Shown one piece after another: positions 1 to 51,886 of a stretch of DNA of 64,000 bases. Every line of letters begins with the position of its first letter. Within the stretch, counting starts at the first letter, position 1. The stretch covers positions 1 to 64,000 of IMG/VR virus record IMGVR_UViG_3300044821_000131; one strand, 5' to 3'. Under the pieces are notes generated by a model, which saw nothing but the letters and a program-made list of their open reading frames with translations, ran no database searches and was not told the origin of the DNA. This stretch comes from a virus. A program made the translations under genes and the position numbers.

Positions 1-1
1 C

Positions 2-379
2 GTGACGATCGACAATTACGTGACGATCGGCGATGACGTGACGATCGGCAATCGCGTGACGATCGGCGATTACGTGGCGCTCGGCAATGGCGTGACGATC
101 GGCGATGACGTGGTTATTCCCAAAGCTGCGAACATCCAACTCCAATACGACCTGGTCACCATCAACAACTTGGGATCCCGGAACGCGCCCTTATCCGCTG
201 TTAAAATCAAGGATATCGTCCATGTCGCGACTGGGTGCTTCAGTGGCACGATTGATGAGTTTGATAAGAGGGTAAAGGAAGTGCATGGGGAGAGTGAGCA
301 TGGGACGGCATACCGAAATGTGATAAACTACGTAAAACTACACTTTTCGTCGCATGAGAATTTCAAAAGCCAACGTTAA
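2..379 (+). CDS. Hexapeptide-repeat protein, copy 1 (5' end cut by window edge)
   Basis: The window opens inside this gene. Six hexapeptide units of the V-x-I-G-(N/D)-x type are visible, the pattern of left-handed beta-helix proteins. They are followed by a C-terminal domain (from VVIPKAANIQ onward, about 85 residues) containing GSRNAPLSAVKIKD and ATGCFSGTIDEF. The same domain recurs almost base for base at 3023-3250, 47650-47860 and 51644-51850. The real start lies upstream. Hexapeptide folds are known from acyltransferases, but no catalytic His or partner domain is visible, so no enzyme function is claimed. The last codons overlap the next gene by 26 bases. Confidence 0.8.
   Translation: MTIDNYVTIGDDVTIGNRVTIGDYVALGNGVTIGDDVVIPKAANIQLQYDLVTINNLGSRNAPLSAVKIKDIVHVATGCFSGTIDEFDKRVKEVHGESEHGTAYRNVINYVKLHFSSHENFKSQR
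5..112 (+). repeat. 18-bp coding tandem repeat, 6 visible units
   Basis: Six 18-bp units of the form ACG ATC GGC AAT TAC GTG. Differences fall in the first and second bases of three codons, while third bases stay fixed. The array is cut by the window edge. Confidence 0.9.
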
Positions 380-2713: not shown

Positions 2714-3304
2714 ATGAACCTATATCTAAAAGATTCATACGGTAATTGGAAATCACACAGCTACGAAACGTTATCCGATTTGGCCAGGGAGTTTGCCAAA
2801 CGTAACATAAAAATCGGCAATCGTGTGGCGCTCGGCAGTGACGTGGCGATCGGCAATCGCGTGGCGATCGGCGATTACGTGACGATCGGCTATGGCGTGA
2901 CGATCGGCGATTACGTGGCGATCGGCAATTTCGTGAAGATCGGCGATGACGTGGCGATCGGCAATTTCGTGAAGATCGGCAACGACGTGATGATCGGCAA
3001 TTTCGTGAAGATCGGCAATGACGTGGTTATTCCCAAAGCTGCGAACATCCAACTCCAATACGACCTGGTCACCATCAACAACTTGGGATCCCGGAACGCG
3101 CCCTTATCTGCTGTTAAAATCAAGGATATCGTCCATGTCGCGACTGGGTGCTTCAGTGGATCGATTGATGAGTTTGCGAAGAAGGTGAAGGAAGTGCATG
3201 GGGAGAGTGAGCATGGGATGCGTTATTTGGATGCTATTGAGCACATCCGTAAACATTTTGCGCGGGCTATATCAATTAAGTCTCATGACGAAAAAGGTGT
3301 CTAA
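2714..3304 (+). CDS. Hexapeptide-repeat protein, copy 2 (complete, 12 units)
   Basis: Complete member of the five-copy family. Three parts: N-terminal block of about 32 residues (LYLKDSYGNWKSHSYETL then LAREFAKRN), twelve hexapeptide units (residues 33-104), and the shared C-terminal domain with NNLGSRNAPLSAVKIKD and ATGCFSGSIDEF. A left-handed beta-helix is the expected fold for the repeats. The last about 20 codons (MRYLDAIEHIRKHFARAISI) are unique to this copy. It starts five bases after thyX stops. No catalytic site is evident; a structural or binding role is inference. Confidence 0.85.
   Translation: MNLYLKDSYGNWKSHSYETLSDLAREFAKRNIKIGNRVALGSDVAIGNRVAIGDYVTIGYGVTIGDYVAIGNFVKIGDDVAIGNFVKIGNDVMIGNFVKIGNDVVIPKAANIQLQYDLVTINNLGSRNAPLSAVKIKDIVHVATGCFSGSIDEFAKKVKEVHGESEHGMRYLDAIEHIRKHFARAISIKSHDEKGV
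2810..3025 (+). repeat. 18-bp coding tandem repeat, 12 units
   Basis: Twelve 18-bp units in frame with copy 2. Variable codons: Thr/Ala/Lys/Met, Asn/Asp/Ser/Tyr and Tyr/Arg/Asp/Gly/Phe, with only two third-base exceptions (CGT and AAC). Confidence 0.9.
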
Positions 3305-39262: not shown

Positions 39263-39787
39263 ATGAAGATACATCTTTTGGTTGGCCAGCGAAAAGAGAG
39301 CTATGCTGGCGAGTTTGCTCCTGAAGTTTTGGAAGCCATAGACGAATTCGGTAATTGCGAAAATGCCGGCGAATGGCTGCAGGGTAAGATGAAGGAGTAC
39401 CGCGTTGACGCTTCTTTTGAAGCACTAGTCATAGTTACATTGGAAGTTCCTACACTTAAAATTTTGGAACGTTTACGTCCGAATAATGAACCTATTGTCG
39501 CCGAGGTGGTAGACACAGATTTATTGACCCTATATCTAAAAGATTCAGACGGTATTTGGAAATCACACAGCTACGAAACGTTATCCGATTTGGCCGGGGA
39601 GTTTGCCAAACGTAACATAAAAATCGGCAATGACGTGAAGATCGGCAATTTCGTGAAGATCGGCAATGACGTGACGATCGGCAATCGCGTGGCGATTGGC
39701 AATGACGTGATGATCGGCAATCGCGTGACGATCATTGATAACACATGTATACCTCCGGAGCTTATCATTCAAAAAAGACTAAGCTGA
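39263..39787 (+). CDS. Hexapeptide-repeat protein, chimeric and truncated (copy 3)
   Basis: Differs from the other copies at both ends. The first about 80 residues (LVGQRKESYAGEFAPEVLEA, EYRVDASFEALVIVTLEVP) are a separate short phage-protein domain. It is followed by the family N-terminal block (LYLKDSDGIWKSHSYETL) and six hexapeptide units. The C-terminal domain is missing: the frame runs into NTCIPPELIIQKRLS and stops at a TGA in the sequence AAGCTGA that also ends the ORFs at the attC-like sites in 42.1-42.5 kb. So a cassette-type rearrangement probably removed the original 3' end. Confidence 0.7.
   Translation: MKIHLLVGQRKESYAGEFAPEVLEAIDEFGNCENAGEWLQGKMKEYRVDASFEALVIVTLEVPTLKILERLRPNNEPIVAEVVDTDLLTLYLKDSDGIWKSHSYETLSDLAGEFAKRNIKIGNDVKIGNFVKIGNDVTIGNRVAIGNDVMIGNRVTIIDNTCIPPELIIQKRLS
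39620..39727 (+). repeat. 18-bp coding tandem repeat, 6 units
   Basis: Six units in frame with copy 3, after which the repeat decays into non-family sequence. Confidence 0.9.
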
Positions 39788-43440: not shown

Positions 43441-44985
43441 ATGACCGACGACGTAGCCGCACCCCCGGGAGTGGAAATTACAGCTTGGGATGACTTTCCC
43501 AAGAAACGCCAGCAGATTCTCACTGGCGCTAAAACTGCCCTGCAAGAATCATTTCCCCAATCCTATGGCGGGGTGCGGCTTGAACTACACGACCTCGATT
43601 ACGACAATCCCAAGGAATTCACATTGTCGGAACAGAAGGACGCCCTGATGAAGAACCAGTTTCTCCATCACAAACTCAAGGGTACGTTAAAATTATTCGA
43701 TGAGAAAACCGGTGCGTTGCTGGATCAGAAAACTCAGACGCTCATGCGAGTTCCTTACCTTACCGAGCGTGGTACATTTCTACATAATGGTAACGAGATC
43801 ACCACCAACAGCCAGGCTCGGCTCATGCCGGGCATCTATACGCGGCGTAAGAATTCTGGTGAAATTGAGTCTCAGGTGAACGCCAAGCGTGGATCGGGAT
43901 CATCCTTCCGTGTACGTCTCGAACCCGAGTCCGGTTTGTTTAAGGTCGACATCGGTCAGAGTAGTCTGCGGCTTTATTCGTTGTTGAAAGATATTGGAGT
44001 GTCCGATCAGCAGATTGAGAAGACTTGGGGACCAGAACTGTTGAAGAAGAATCAGGACTCCTACGATGCCAGGGTGTTCGAGAAGGCTTACGATCGATTG
44101 GTGCGGCGTCCCGATCCGAAGGCCACGCGCGAGCAGAAGGTAGAGGCAATCAAGCAGGCTTTGGACAATACGCAGGTGGATCGGTCGGTGGTCATGAGGA
44201 CATTGCCGAATCTGTTCGCCACCAAGTTCTCCTCGATGTTGGCATTCGATCCTACCATGCCTCGGCCGCAGAGCGAGAAGAAGGAATTCAATCACGACGA
44301 TTGCCTGATGCTGGCGGAGCTGTTGAATCAGAAGTTTCATGCTGGCATTCCGTTGGATGCCCCGACCTCAGAGATCGTAGCCATGGTGATGGGTGAAATA
44401 CAGAAGCTCATGCCGTCGGTGAATGAGCAGATGCTGGCACAGACTGTAGGGCAACAGCAGAAAGAGGCGCGATCGAAACAAGGTTATCTGATGTTGAATT
44501 TCGAACCGGAAGACGCCATGAGGTTTTCCAAGTGGTCAAGGCAGAATATCCCGGATTCGAAACTGGGTGCGTCCGGACGTGAAGACACCCCGCATATCAC
44601 TTTGCGTTGGGGTATCAACACGGGTGATATTGGGCACCTGAAATCATTCTTCTCAGAACAGTCCCCAGTCCAAGCCACGCTCGGCGCTCTGACTCGATTT
44701 CCTGGCGTCGACGACGGAAACCAAGATGCACTAGTGGCGCCGGTAGAGTCCGAATCCATTCACAAGCTACACCATGCTGTCGTATCGACGTTTCATTCTC
44801 ATCTCGGACCCGTCAAGTTCAATACCTACCGGCCACATGTTACTCTAGCCTATTTAAGGCGTGGCGAGATGCCGGAATTGGAAGGTAACAAGGAGTTTCA
44901 TGGCCAGACATTCCAGTTGAAGAAGGTGGTGTATTCCAATCCTCGCACCAGCTCGTATATTGACATTCCGCTGGGTACAAATTAG
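43441..44985 (+). CDS. RNA polymerase beta-subunit N-terminal part fused to a 2H phosphoesterase
   Basis: Residues about 45-200 match the start of bacterial RpoB: MRVPYLTERGTFLHNGNEIT and NSQARLMPGIYTRR correspond to the PLMTxxGTFIINGxERV...QLxRSPGVYF block, then FRVRLEPESGLFKVDIG and LRLYSLLKDIGVS. Residues about 355-514 are a different domain with two H-x-T/V-L signatures, TPHITLRWG (H385) and RPHVTLAYL (H466), the 2H phosphoesterase (LigT-like) pair acting on 2',3'-cyclic or 2'-5' RNA ends. Such a fusion could clean RNA ends or protect phage transcripts. The rest of beta continues in a separate gene at 45712. Confidence 0.7.
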   Translation: MTDDVAAPPGVEITAWDDFPKKRQQILTGAKTALQESFPQSYGGVRLELHDLDYDNPKEFTLSEQKDALMKNQFLHHKLKGTLKLFDEKTGALLDQKTQTLMRVPYLTERGTFLHNGNEITTNSQARLMPGIYTRRKNSGEIESQVNAKRGSGSSFRVRLEPESGLFKVDIGQSSLRLYSLLKDIGVSDQQIEKTWGPELLKKNQDSYDARVFEKAYDRLVRRPDPKATREQKVEAIKQALDNTQVDRSVVMRTLPNLFATKFSSMLAFDPTMPRPQSEKKEFNHDDCLMLAELLNQKFHAGIPLDAPTSEIVAMVMGEIQKLMPSVNEQMLAQTVGQQQKEARSKQGYLMLNFEPEDAMRFSKWSRQNIPDSKLGASGREDTPHITLRWGINTGDIGHLKSFFSEQSPVQATLGALTRFPGVDDGNQDALVAPVESESIHKLHHAVVSTFHSHLGPVKFNTYRPHVTLAYLRRGEMPELEGNKEFHGQTFQLKKVVYSNPRTSSYIDIPLGTN

Positions 44986-45711: not shown

Positions 45712-47163
45712 ATGCTCACTTACGAAAAGATTTTCGCGCAGGCTAAAAAAGCTTTCGTCGAATCCAAATCTGCTACTGCCGAACCGGCTCAGCCCACAGA
45801 GGATACCGTTCCGGTCAATCCTGACGCGATCTTGGCTATCACCAGCAAGTTGTTAGCTGTGACTAGAGGTGAGGCGGATCCGGACGAACGTGATAGCCTT
45901 CAATTTAAAAGAGTTCACACTCCCGATAAACTGTTCGCCGAACGCATTAAGATGGATGCCCATAAACTGCGTAAGATCGCGATGCGTCGCGTTTCGCGTG
46001 TCCGCAATCTATCACCTATCGGTGTGGCGCATTTCGATCCTTACACGGGAGGATTGATCGTTGGGCATCCGTTATCCAGTCCTTTGGAAGAGACGAACCC
46101 GTTATCGCTTACGGAGCAGGCGAGACGCGTGACGCAGATGGGACCTGGTGGTATTCCTTCCTCGGATTCGATCACGGAAGAGGCACAATCTGTGTCTCCT
46201 TCGATATTCGGTTTCTTGTCAGCGATCGAAGGGCCGGAATGCTTTTCAGATGACACAGAGGTGTTCACTTATAACGGGTGGAAGTTTTGGAGTAGCATTA
46301 CAAATTCGGATCGTCTGGCCTGTCGTGATGAACACGGGCAAATGTTTTTCTCGGCCCCTAGTCGCCTAATAGCTGCACCTTATACTGGACCTATGGTCCA
46401 AGCTGACGCTCGGATGTTTCATTTAAAGGTTACGCCGAATCACAGGTTACTTGTCGCTAAGCACATGAGAAAATCACAAGTTCCCACGACTTGGTTTAAA
46501 ATTTTTGCCGGTGATTTTTCTGATCATAATGTTTTGCGATTCGACACCGGCAGCCTTCCATATTCTGGAAATTCTGTTTTAACATGGTCTCTACCCGATT
46601 ATGCTCTTGATAAGTTCATTCCGGAATACTTGTTCGATGCACCAATTTCTGCCCGACAGAAGTTGTTTGAAGCCCTACTTTTGGGAGATGGTCGGATTAA
46701 CAAAAACCACACCAATTTTACCAGCAGCAGCAAACAATTGGCTACTGATTTTGAACGTTTGGCCGTAGGCTTAGGACACACCACCAATTTTAGAAAATAT
46801 TTCGACAAGCGACCCCATGTACAAGCTTGGACTTATGAGATTAGTATTTTGAAGTTGCGCGAGCGCGTGGCGGCTAGAAAACCCAAGTCTGGTGTTGGCG
46901 GGCTGTTTTCGATAGTCGATTATTCTGGTATTGTGTATTGTGCCACGGTTCCCGGCGGCCTGTTGCTGACTCGACGTGGCGTATCTACCGGTGTATGGTC
47001 AGGCAATAGTGAACGCATCGGTGTAGATACGCGTCTCGCTTGGGGCGCTAACGTTGGCTCAGACGGAAAAATTTATCAGAAACTCTTGAATCGCAGGACT
47101 GGTCAGCATCAGTATGTGTCACCGGACGATCTCGTCGGTCGCACGGTTGGTATCCCTGAATAG
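45712..47163 (+). CDS. RNA polymerase beta-subunit middle part, containing an intein
   Basis: Extein of about 227 residues matching RpoB around the rifampicin pocket. RDSLQFKRVHTPDKLFAERI aligns with the DIDHLGNRRVR region; NPLSLTEQARRVTQMGPGG is the NPLSEITHKRRISALGPGG block; then IEGPE-intein-SERIG corresponds to IETPEGPNIGLI. After the intein the frame runs only 50 codons (GANVGSDGKIYQKLL) and ends GRTVGIPE, so the catalytic C-terminal half of beta must be a different gene outside this window. Together with the 43441 gene it makes a split beta subunit of a phage multisubunit RNA polymerase. Confidence 0.75.
   Translation: MLTYEKIFAQAKKAFVESKSATAEPAQPTEDTVPVNPDAILAITSKLLAVTRGEADPDERDSLQFKRVHTPDKLFAERIKMDAHKLRKIAMRRVSRVRNLSPIGVAHFDPYTGGLIVGHPLSSPLEETNPLSLTEQARRVTQMGPGGIPSSDSITEEAQSVSPSIFGFLSAIEGPECFSDDTEVFTYNGWKFWSSITNSDRLACRDEHGQMFFSAPSRLIAAPYTGPMVQADARMFHLKVTPNHRLLVAKHMRKSQVPTTWFKIFAGDFSDHNVLRFDTGSLPYSGNSVLTWSLPDYALDKFIPEYLFDAPISARQKLFEALLLGDGRINKNHTNFTSSSKQLATDFERLAVGLGHTTNFRKYFDKRPHVQAWTYEISILKLRERVAARKPKSGVGGLFSIVDYSGIVYCATVPGGLLLTRRGVSTGVWSGNSERIGVDTRLAWGANVGSDGKIYQKLLNRRTGQHQYVSPDDLVGRTVGIPE
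46240..47007 (+). mobile_element. Intein in RNA polymerase beta
   Basis: 256-residue intein from Cys177 (CFSDDTEVFTYNG) to Asn432 (GVWSGN), before extein Ser433. Block B MFHLKVTPNHRLL; one endonuclease motif FEALLLGDGRI; a second is not clear, so the endonuclease may be decaying. C-terminal block VYCATVPGGLLL. It interrupts the IEGPE/SERIG loop. Confidence 0.9.
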
Positions 47164-47229: not shown

Positions 47230-47901
47230 ATGAACCTATTATATCTAAAAGATTCAGACGGTAATTGGCGATCACATAGCTACGAAACGTTATCCGATTT
47301 GGCCGGGGAGTTTGCCAAACGTAACATAAAAATCGGCAATCGCGTGGCGATCGGCAATTACGTGACGCTCGGCAATTACGTGACGATCGGCAGTGACGTG
47401 ACGATCGGCAATTACGTGACGATCGGCAGTGACGTGACGATCGGCAATTACGTGACGATCGGCAATCGCGTGGCGATCGGCAATTACGTGACGATCGGCT
47501 ATGGCGTGACGATCGGCTATGGCGTGACGATCGGCAATCGCGTGAAGATCGGCAATGACGTAAAGATCGGCAATGACGTGACGATCGGCGATGACGTGGA
47601 GATCGGCGATGACGTGATGATCGGCAATTACGTGAGGATCGGCAATTACGTGGTTATTCCCAAAGCTGCGAACATCCAACTCCAATACGACCTGGTCACC
47701 ATCAACAACTTGGGATCCCGGAACGCGGCCTTATCTGCTGTTAAAATCAAGGATATCATCCATGTCGCGACTGGGTGCTTCAGTGGCACGATTGATGAGT
47801 TTGAGAAGAGGGTGAAGGAAGTGCATGAAGAGAGTGAGCATGGGATGCGTTACGGTCTGGTTATTGAAGTTATTCGTAAATGGTTTTCGGTACAACGGTA
47901 A
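47230..47901 (+). CDS. Hexapeptide-repeat protein, copy 4 (complete, 18 units)
   Basis: Longest member: N-terminal block (LYLKDSDGNWRSHSYETL), 18 hexapeptide units (residues about 34-141) and the shared C-terminal domain (NNLGSRNAALSAVKIKD). The ATG at 47230 is chosen because the other copies start MNLYLKD; a TTG at 47221 sits in the terminator tail. It lies directly after the terminator of the beta gene. Eighteen units would form about six beta-helix turns; function unknown. Confidence 0.85.
   Translation: MNLLYLKDSDGNWRSHSYETLSDLAGEFAKRNIKIGNRVAIGNYVTLGNYVTIGSDVTIGNYVTIGSDVTIGNYVTIGNRVAIGNYVTIGYGVTIGYGVTIGNRVKIGNDVKIGNDVTIGDDVEIGDDVMIGNYVRIGNYVVIPKAANIQLQYDLVTINNLGSRNAALSAVKIKDIIHVATGCFSGTIDEFEKRVKEVHEESEHGMRYGLVIEVIRKWFSVQR
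47329..47652 (+). repeat. 18-bp coding tandem repeat, 18 units
   Basis: Largest array. Variable codons show Thr/Ala/Lys/Glu/Met/Arg at one position, yet third bases stay G, T and C in their columns. Confidence 0.95.
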
Positions 47902-51423: not shown

Positions 51424-51454
51424 ACGCGCAGTAATCCCTTACTGCGCGTTTTTG
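51424..51454 (+). terminator. Rho-independent terminator, duplicated copy 2
   Basis: Identical hairpin to 47193 (ACGCGCAGTAA-TCCC-TTACTGCGCGT plus U tract), again followed by TGCATTTTATG and a hexapeptide gene. Confidence 0.9.
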
Positions 51455-51460
51455 CATTTT

Positions 51461-51886
51461 ATGCTCCTATATCTAAAAGATTCAAACGGTATTTGGAAAT
51501 TACACAGCTACGAAACGTTATCCGATTTGGCCAATGAGTTTGCCAAACGTAACATAAAAATCGGCAATGACGTGACGATCGGCGATTACGTGGCGCTCGG
51601 CAATGACGTGGCGCTCGGCAATCGCGTGAAGATCGGCAATGGCGTGGTTATTCCCAAAGCTGCGAACATCCAACTCCAATACGACCTGGTCACCATCAAC
51701 AACTTGGGATCCCGGAACGCGCCCTTATCTGCTGTTAAAATCAAGGATATCGTCCATGTCGCGACTGGGTGCTTCAGTGGCACGATTGATGAGTTTGATA
51801 AGAAGGTGAAGGAAGTGCATGAAGAGAGTGAGCATGGGATGCGTTATCTGAAGGCCATTAAATATATCAAAGATCAATTAACATGA
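51461..51886 (+). CDS. Hexapeptide-repeat protein, copy 5 (complete, 5 units)
   Basis: Shortest complete copy: N-terminal block (LYLKDSNGIWKLHSYETL), five units, and the shared C-terminal domain (ATGCFSGTIDEFDKK). The ATG at 51461 follows the duplicated leader; a TTG at 51452 is in frame. ATGA overlap with the DUF1257-like gene links it to the Ycf46 module, possibly by insertion. Confidence 0.85.
   Translation: MLLYLKDSNGIWKLHSYETLSDLANEFAKRNIKIGNDVTIGDYVALGNDVALGNRVKIGNGVVIPKAANIQLQYDLVTINNLGSRNAPLSAVKIKDIVHVATGCFSGTIDEFDKKVKEVHEESEHGMRYLKAIKYIKDQLT
51557..51646 (+). repeat. 18-bp coding tandem repeat, 5 units
   Basis: Five units in frame with copy 5. Same variable positions as the other arrays. 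Confidence 0.9.

Follow-up and report, generated by a model that had tools for sequence, protein, structure and literature searches.

Why should a coding repeat change freely at the first and second bases of certain codons while its third bases hardly move? The question is posed by a gene (gene D) that lies in the first 64,000 bases, hereafter the window, of an IMG/VR phage record of 204,257 bases, and that carries a tandem array of eighteen-base units. The earlier note on this DNA saw in the pattern a targeted or selected diversification of exposed residues, maintained by recombination among the repeats. The answer that we consider probable is that these are recombining and concertedly evolving solenoid arrays, selected for a small alphabet of exposed residues, and that their products would serve as intracellular binding scaffolds.

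The gene family and its predicted fold

The repeat family is directly observed: 82 eighteen-base units are distributed over six paralogous genes, A to F, in the 204-kb record (Table 1), a count that applies to metagenome-assembled arrays which may be partly collapsed, and to a record that itself ends within array F. The window holds five copies with 6 (at the window start), 12, 6, 18 and 5 units, which makes exactly 47, just as the earlier note had approximated. In an alignment the DNA of the paralogs is nearly identical over a stretch that begins at the start codon and ends about 190 bases past the array, and beyond that point the C-terminal tails are private to each paralog. Gene C departs from this plan in that its cassette forms a fusion with some 88 amino acids of unrelated sequence on the N-terminal side and has no C-terminal domain. 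The 5' part of gene F lies in the final ~350 bases of the record, which join the window start via a 61-base terminal overlap.

Table 1. Array genes and associated features; positions are those of the window unless the record is named
Feature	Position	Strand	Evidence
Gene F, 3' part; 17 units in all after joining	1..379	+	unit search
Gene B, paralog, 12 units (array 2813-3028)	2714..3304	+	unit search
Gene C, paralogous cassette, 6 units (array 39623-39730)	39263..39787	+	unit search
Terminator-like hairpin just 5' of the gene D start codon	47195..47216	+	exact match
Gene D, 223 aa: short N-terminal domain, 18-unit hexapeptide solenoid, C-terminal domain with private tail	47230..47901	+	ORF, translation, Pfam, PHROG
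Array D, 18 units of 18 bases	47332..47655	+	tandem repeat detection, unit listing
C-terminal domain of gene D, nearly base-identical in copies A, B, E and F	47656..47847	+	flank alignment, pN/pS
Gene E, paralog, 5 units (array 51560-51649)	51461..51886	+	unit search
Gene A, sixth paralog, 24 units	record 79001-79432 (beyond the window)		unit search

Several features of the surroundings are worth recording. The terminal overlap falls inside array F (window 1-61 against record 204197-204257), and the record is listed without end repeats despite it; the assembler probably opened a circular or circularly permuted genome at the repeat. The hairpin in front of gene D recurs in identical form at 51426-51447, directly preceding the start codon of gene E, and may therefore be part of the duplicated unit. 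The region immediately upstream of gene D, window 45712-47163, encodes a fragment that resembles RNA polymerase beta (PF04565) and is interrupted by an apparent intein with a LAGLIDADG-like domain. Further upstream (43441-44985) lies a 2'-5' RNA ligase-like domain whose match to the anti-CBASS protein Acb1 is weak and below the cut-off.

The units encode hexapeptides such as IGNDVT, with the overall form IG[NDSY][DYRGF]V[TAKMER]. Gene D matches the Pfam Hexapep family PF00132 with an E-value of 2e-30 and 103.6 bits against a curated cut-off of 27, which is passed by all five window copies, and it also matches phrog_5353 and phrog_20532. Comparison with PDB sequences returns LpxA/LpxD-type left-handed beta-helix proteins, and from these matches the unit is predicted to be a left-handed beta-helix hexapeptide of the PF00132 type. 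Strands recur at 18 residues, the length of a coil of three hexapeptides, in a structure model, but the model is weak (pLDDT 62) and yields no significant Foldseek match. Since histidine is absent from all 82 repeat units, the acyltransferase or gamma-carbonic-anhydrase site that is usual in hexapeptide enzymes, and with it the corresponding activity, is unlikely to be present.

No close kin turned up among the sequences searched. A blastn search among phages gave no match; scans of viral contigs with the gene, with a four-unit DNA pattern and with the paralog alignment gave zero or one distant match; and a search of genome contigs gave none. The DNA polymerase of the phage, used as a query, found a sole relative at 49%, whose 15-kb locus does not contain an array.

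Codon variation and recombination within the record

Variation in the units is concentrated in three codons, and counting confirms the codon sets that had been listed for them: AAT/GAT/AGT/TAT (N/D/S/Y) at codon 3, GAC/TAC/CGC/GGC/TTC (D/Y/R/G/F) at codon 4 and ACG/GCG/AAG/ATG/GAG/AGG (T/A/K/M/E/R) at codon 6. The core codons ATC, GGC and GTG are nearly uniform across units, and in 11 of the 18 unit columns no more than two of the 82 units depart from the commonest base. Third bases do stay put with few exceptions, as claimed, the synonymous codons in the 82 units amounting to AAC twice and ATT, CGT and GTA once each, with the GTT of the last unit treated as a fixed boundary and kept outside this list. 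Even so, synonymous mutations are not depleted and third bases enjoy no special protection, because the distinct mutational steps, whose count is only approximate for recombining arrays, comprise 14 nonsynonymous and 4 synonymous changes where neutrality predicts a synonymous fraction of 0.24 (P=0.56). The premise that neutral drift would place most changes at third bases is mistaken, as only ~24-27% of random changes in the unit are synonymous.

Synonymous diversity (pS) is 0.029 in the units and 0.036 and 0.096 in the two flanks, and because of this resemblance the frozen look of the third bases can be put down mostly to recent common ancestry and to copy-number weighting. Nonsynonymous diversity (pN), on the other hand, reaches 0.20 in the units against 0.05 and 0.04 in the flanks, that is, it is four to five times higher. 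What needs explanation is the number and frequency of the amino-acid variants rather than the constancy of third bases. Counting synonymous against nonsynonymous differences over all units, the check that the earlier note had proposed, gives a divided result, with steps in neutral proportion and allele frequencies that are strongly skewed: synonymous alleles are all rare and nonsynonymous alleles mostly common (exact permutation p=0.00065), an excess of amino-acid change among the common variants that is directly observed. Moreover, codons 3, 4 and 6, which occupy the outward (X) positions, account for 12 of the 14 nonsynonymous steps (p=0.013). Taken by itself this record is suggestive of a nonsynonymous excess and not conclusive, because 6-11% of the runs of a neutral coalescent of units yield pairwise differences with as low a synonymous share as the one observed.

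The variants do not assort independently. Only 32 distinct unit types occur among the 77 complete units, where free codon assortment would give 45.9, and the variation therefore travels as linked unit types, which are spread over arrays of differing length (MI p=0.001). Recombination, which the earlier note had invoked among the repeats, is directly seen within and between the paralogs, namely in the flanks, where 39 of 55 informative site pairs are incompatible with a single tree, and between arrays A and F, which have 179 identical bases in common when shuffled unit orders give 64 at most. Adjacent unit pairs also recur more often than expected (29 versus 7.0). This neighbour signal stems mostly from A and F (p=0.03 without F, p=0.28 without A), and the unit-order evidence for exchange depends mainly on these two arrays.

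Arrays in other phages and competing explanations

The control set consisted of 73 YdcK-type solenoid arrays (PF18836) from IMG/VR contigs and one Streptococcus prophage, so that most controls represent a sister solenoid family and not PF00132 itself. Overall these arrays show 962 nonsynonymous and 209 synonymous steps, a synonymous fraction of 0.179 against 0.271 expected. The disparity widens in the 25 low-diversity, i.e. young, arrays, a subset selected by total diversity, with 236 nonsynonymous to 20 synonymous steps (0.08 against ~0.27 expected). In this subset the nonsynonymous steps fall chiefly at codons 2, 4 and 6 and the same residues keep recurring (E and N in 25/25 arrays, W and D in 24/25), yet the arrays carry 19 distinct third-base signatures, each fixed inside its array. 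Conversely, the aligned units of arrays L064 and L082 differ by 12 synonymous and 0 nonsynonymous codons. Residues, in other words, vary inside an array, and third bases vary between lineages.

A handful of PF00132-like control arrays behave in the same manner. L104, with 25 units, has 6 nonsynonymous and 0 synonymous steps, L101-L103 have 4-7 and 0, and L097 has 2 and 0; all five again show the D/N/Y/S and G/R/Y/D alphabets, set on different third bases. Two further arrays, L098 and L099, look older and mixed, with synonymous variation present. Recombination among repeats is further supported by the prophage pair L029/L037, whose sampled flanks (140 and 250 bases) are 100% identical and whose arrays, of 19 and 16 units, differ by 8 nonsynonymous and 0 synonymous codons. 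The pattern thus recurs, as a matter of direct observation, in other, unrelated phages, and with their arrays added the nonsynonymous excess is clear.

Two side observations concern the YdcK-type arrays only. In the low-diversity subset, 25/25 consensus units (L018, L019, L020 and others) end codon 6 in G, the base required if tryptophan (TGG) is to lie a single step from R codons and two steps from those for K or E; this may reflect evolvability. Some viral contigs (L051, L073, L074, L087) hold many such arrays inside a few kilobases.

The best-surviving competitor is a young neutral expansion, in which the units would descend from a very recent ancestor and be shuffled by slippage and recombination, their nonsynonymous appearance arising from chance and copy-number weighting over a core under ordinary purifying selection. 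The step ratio of this record, the closeness of unit pS to flank pS and the neutral coalescent runs that reproduce the pattern all sit comfortably with such an expansion. It accords poorly with the finding that all four synonymous alleles are among the rarest, with the strong nonsynonymous bias of young arrays in other phages and with the recurrence of identical residues on differing third-base backgrounds. We regard it as unlikely, albeit with an appreciable residual chance, and infer that selection is the cause of the excess.

Could the third bases instead be fixed by a constraint acting on DNA or RNA, be it codon optimality, an antisense gene or a GATC-bearing motif? GATC is found at the unit junction in most units (68 in the arrays) and 386 times in the window against 249 expected from base composition, and one in-register antisense frame is open across array D. 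However, the mean background fraction of the used codons is just 0.40 and other phages carry the same residues on different third bases, which leads us to reject codon bias, while an antisense gene is rejected because no antisense ORF of at least 100 amino acids spans array B. The contrast between variation inside an array and variation among lineages can arise from recent expansion if the same residues are selected repeatedly, but not from codon preference, and an explanation at the level of nucleic acid constraint is very improbable.

With regard to function, beta-helical phage proteins are frequently tailspikes, and the genes might accordingly encode tail fibres or receptor-binding proteins whose diversity serves host range. 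The predicted fold type, however, is the left-handed hexapeptide and not the right-handed trimeric spike, and the company that the genes keep is of another kind: window neighbours include thymidylate synthase, primase, the RNA polymerase-like gene and an AAA ATPase, and the control genes lie next to genes for DNA methyltransferase, Erf, replication initiator, antirepressor, exonuclease and Gam. A tail-fibre role was rejected as these gene neighbours do not fit, and is very unlikely. Because the control neighbours are genes of early DNA metabolism and host takeover, an intracellular role of early genes, e.g. in binding host or defence proteins, is more likely, and binding is the function that we infer.

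Finally, a diversity-generating retroelement, or any other adenine-directed mutagenic copying, can be dismissed almost entirely: the third bases T, C and G are indeed non-A, and AAT and AAG are conceivable template codons, but RVT_1 (PF00078) is absent from the 204-kb record and from 25 control phage records, no additional template-like unit array occurs anywhere in the record, AAC is never seen at codon 4 in the 82 units, the first base of ATC mutates only to C (7/82), no nonsynonymous codon is private in the sense of occurring just once, and the variation consists of linked unit types shared by arrays of different length. The search for a template repeat and reverse transcriptase suggested by the earlier note has consequently come up empty for this record; of its alternatives, targeted diversification finds no support and selected diversification is supported, with the variable codons at outward positions.

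A proposed shuffled solenoid and its parallels

The selected, concertedly evolving arrays that we favour would work as follows. Duplication, loss and exchange of units, both inside each of the six genes and from one gene to another, would make the arrays evolve in concert and keep third bases and core codons near-uniform, while selection would retain a limited choice of residues at the three positions that face outward (N/D/S/Y, D/Y/R/G/F and T/A/K/M/E/R). Each gene would then present a different permutation of one residue alphabet on one rod, and the specificity of the binding surface could be altered through reshuffling of units instead of new mutation.

If this is true, phages have a means of diversifying a binding surface that needs no enzyme and that occurs in two solenoid families and across many unrelated genomes: near-identical repeat modules are shuffled and selection holds the residue alphabet fixed. 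Genes that are otherwise annotated as hypothetical proteins could then be recognised by a simple mark in their DNA that the fixed third bases provide, namely 18-base arrays in which all variation is nonsynonymous, and their targets would be worth seeking among host defence proteins. A bolder and decidedly tentative generalisation, which we think doubtful as it stands, is that phage hexapeptide solenoids constitute a modular recognition system with a fixed rod, a small exposed alphabet, unit shuffling among paralogs and repeated re-evolution on new synonymous backgrounds, devoted to the intracellular binding of fast-changing host and defence proteins.

No description of hexapeptide arrays in phages was found in the open-access literature, and the known systems resemble them in part. 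With the bacterial transferases of PF00132 the arrays share the six-residue repeat with an aliphatic residue at i and a small one at i+4, but the phage repeats are almost identical in DNA and devoid of histidine. The YdcK-type arrays of PF18836, common in phages and prophages, likewise have 18-base units, third bases fixed per array, few variable codons and early-gene neighbours; their unit is V[YSC]G[ND]A[ERWK] and their flanking domains differ. Diversity-generating retroelements also change first and second codon bases and leave third bases alone (PMC3240598), but the phage arrays lack the reverse transcriptase, the template and the private random variants.

The closest described parallel is the WD40 repeats of the NWD/HNWD genes of Podospora anserina (HET-D, HET-E, HET-R). 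In this fungal family the WD40 repeats are nearly identical and evolve in concert, four of their codons being under positive selection (PMC1805685), and the majority of spontaneous mutants carry rearranged arrays (PMC2873952). In both systems units are near-identical within and between paralogs, evolve in concert and form arrays of variable length and order. A nonsynonymous excess at a few surface codons may be a further common trait, one that in the phage record takes the form of a frequency skew with a neutral step ratio and that is clear in the control arrays. The scaffolds, however, are different: the phage genes encode a predicted left-handed beta-helix without a signalling domain, whereas the fungal repeats build a WD40 beta-propeller in STAND receptors with a proven role in recognition.
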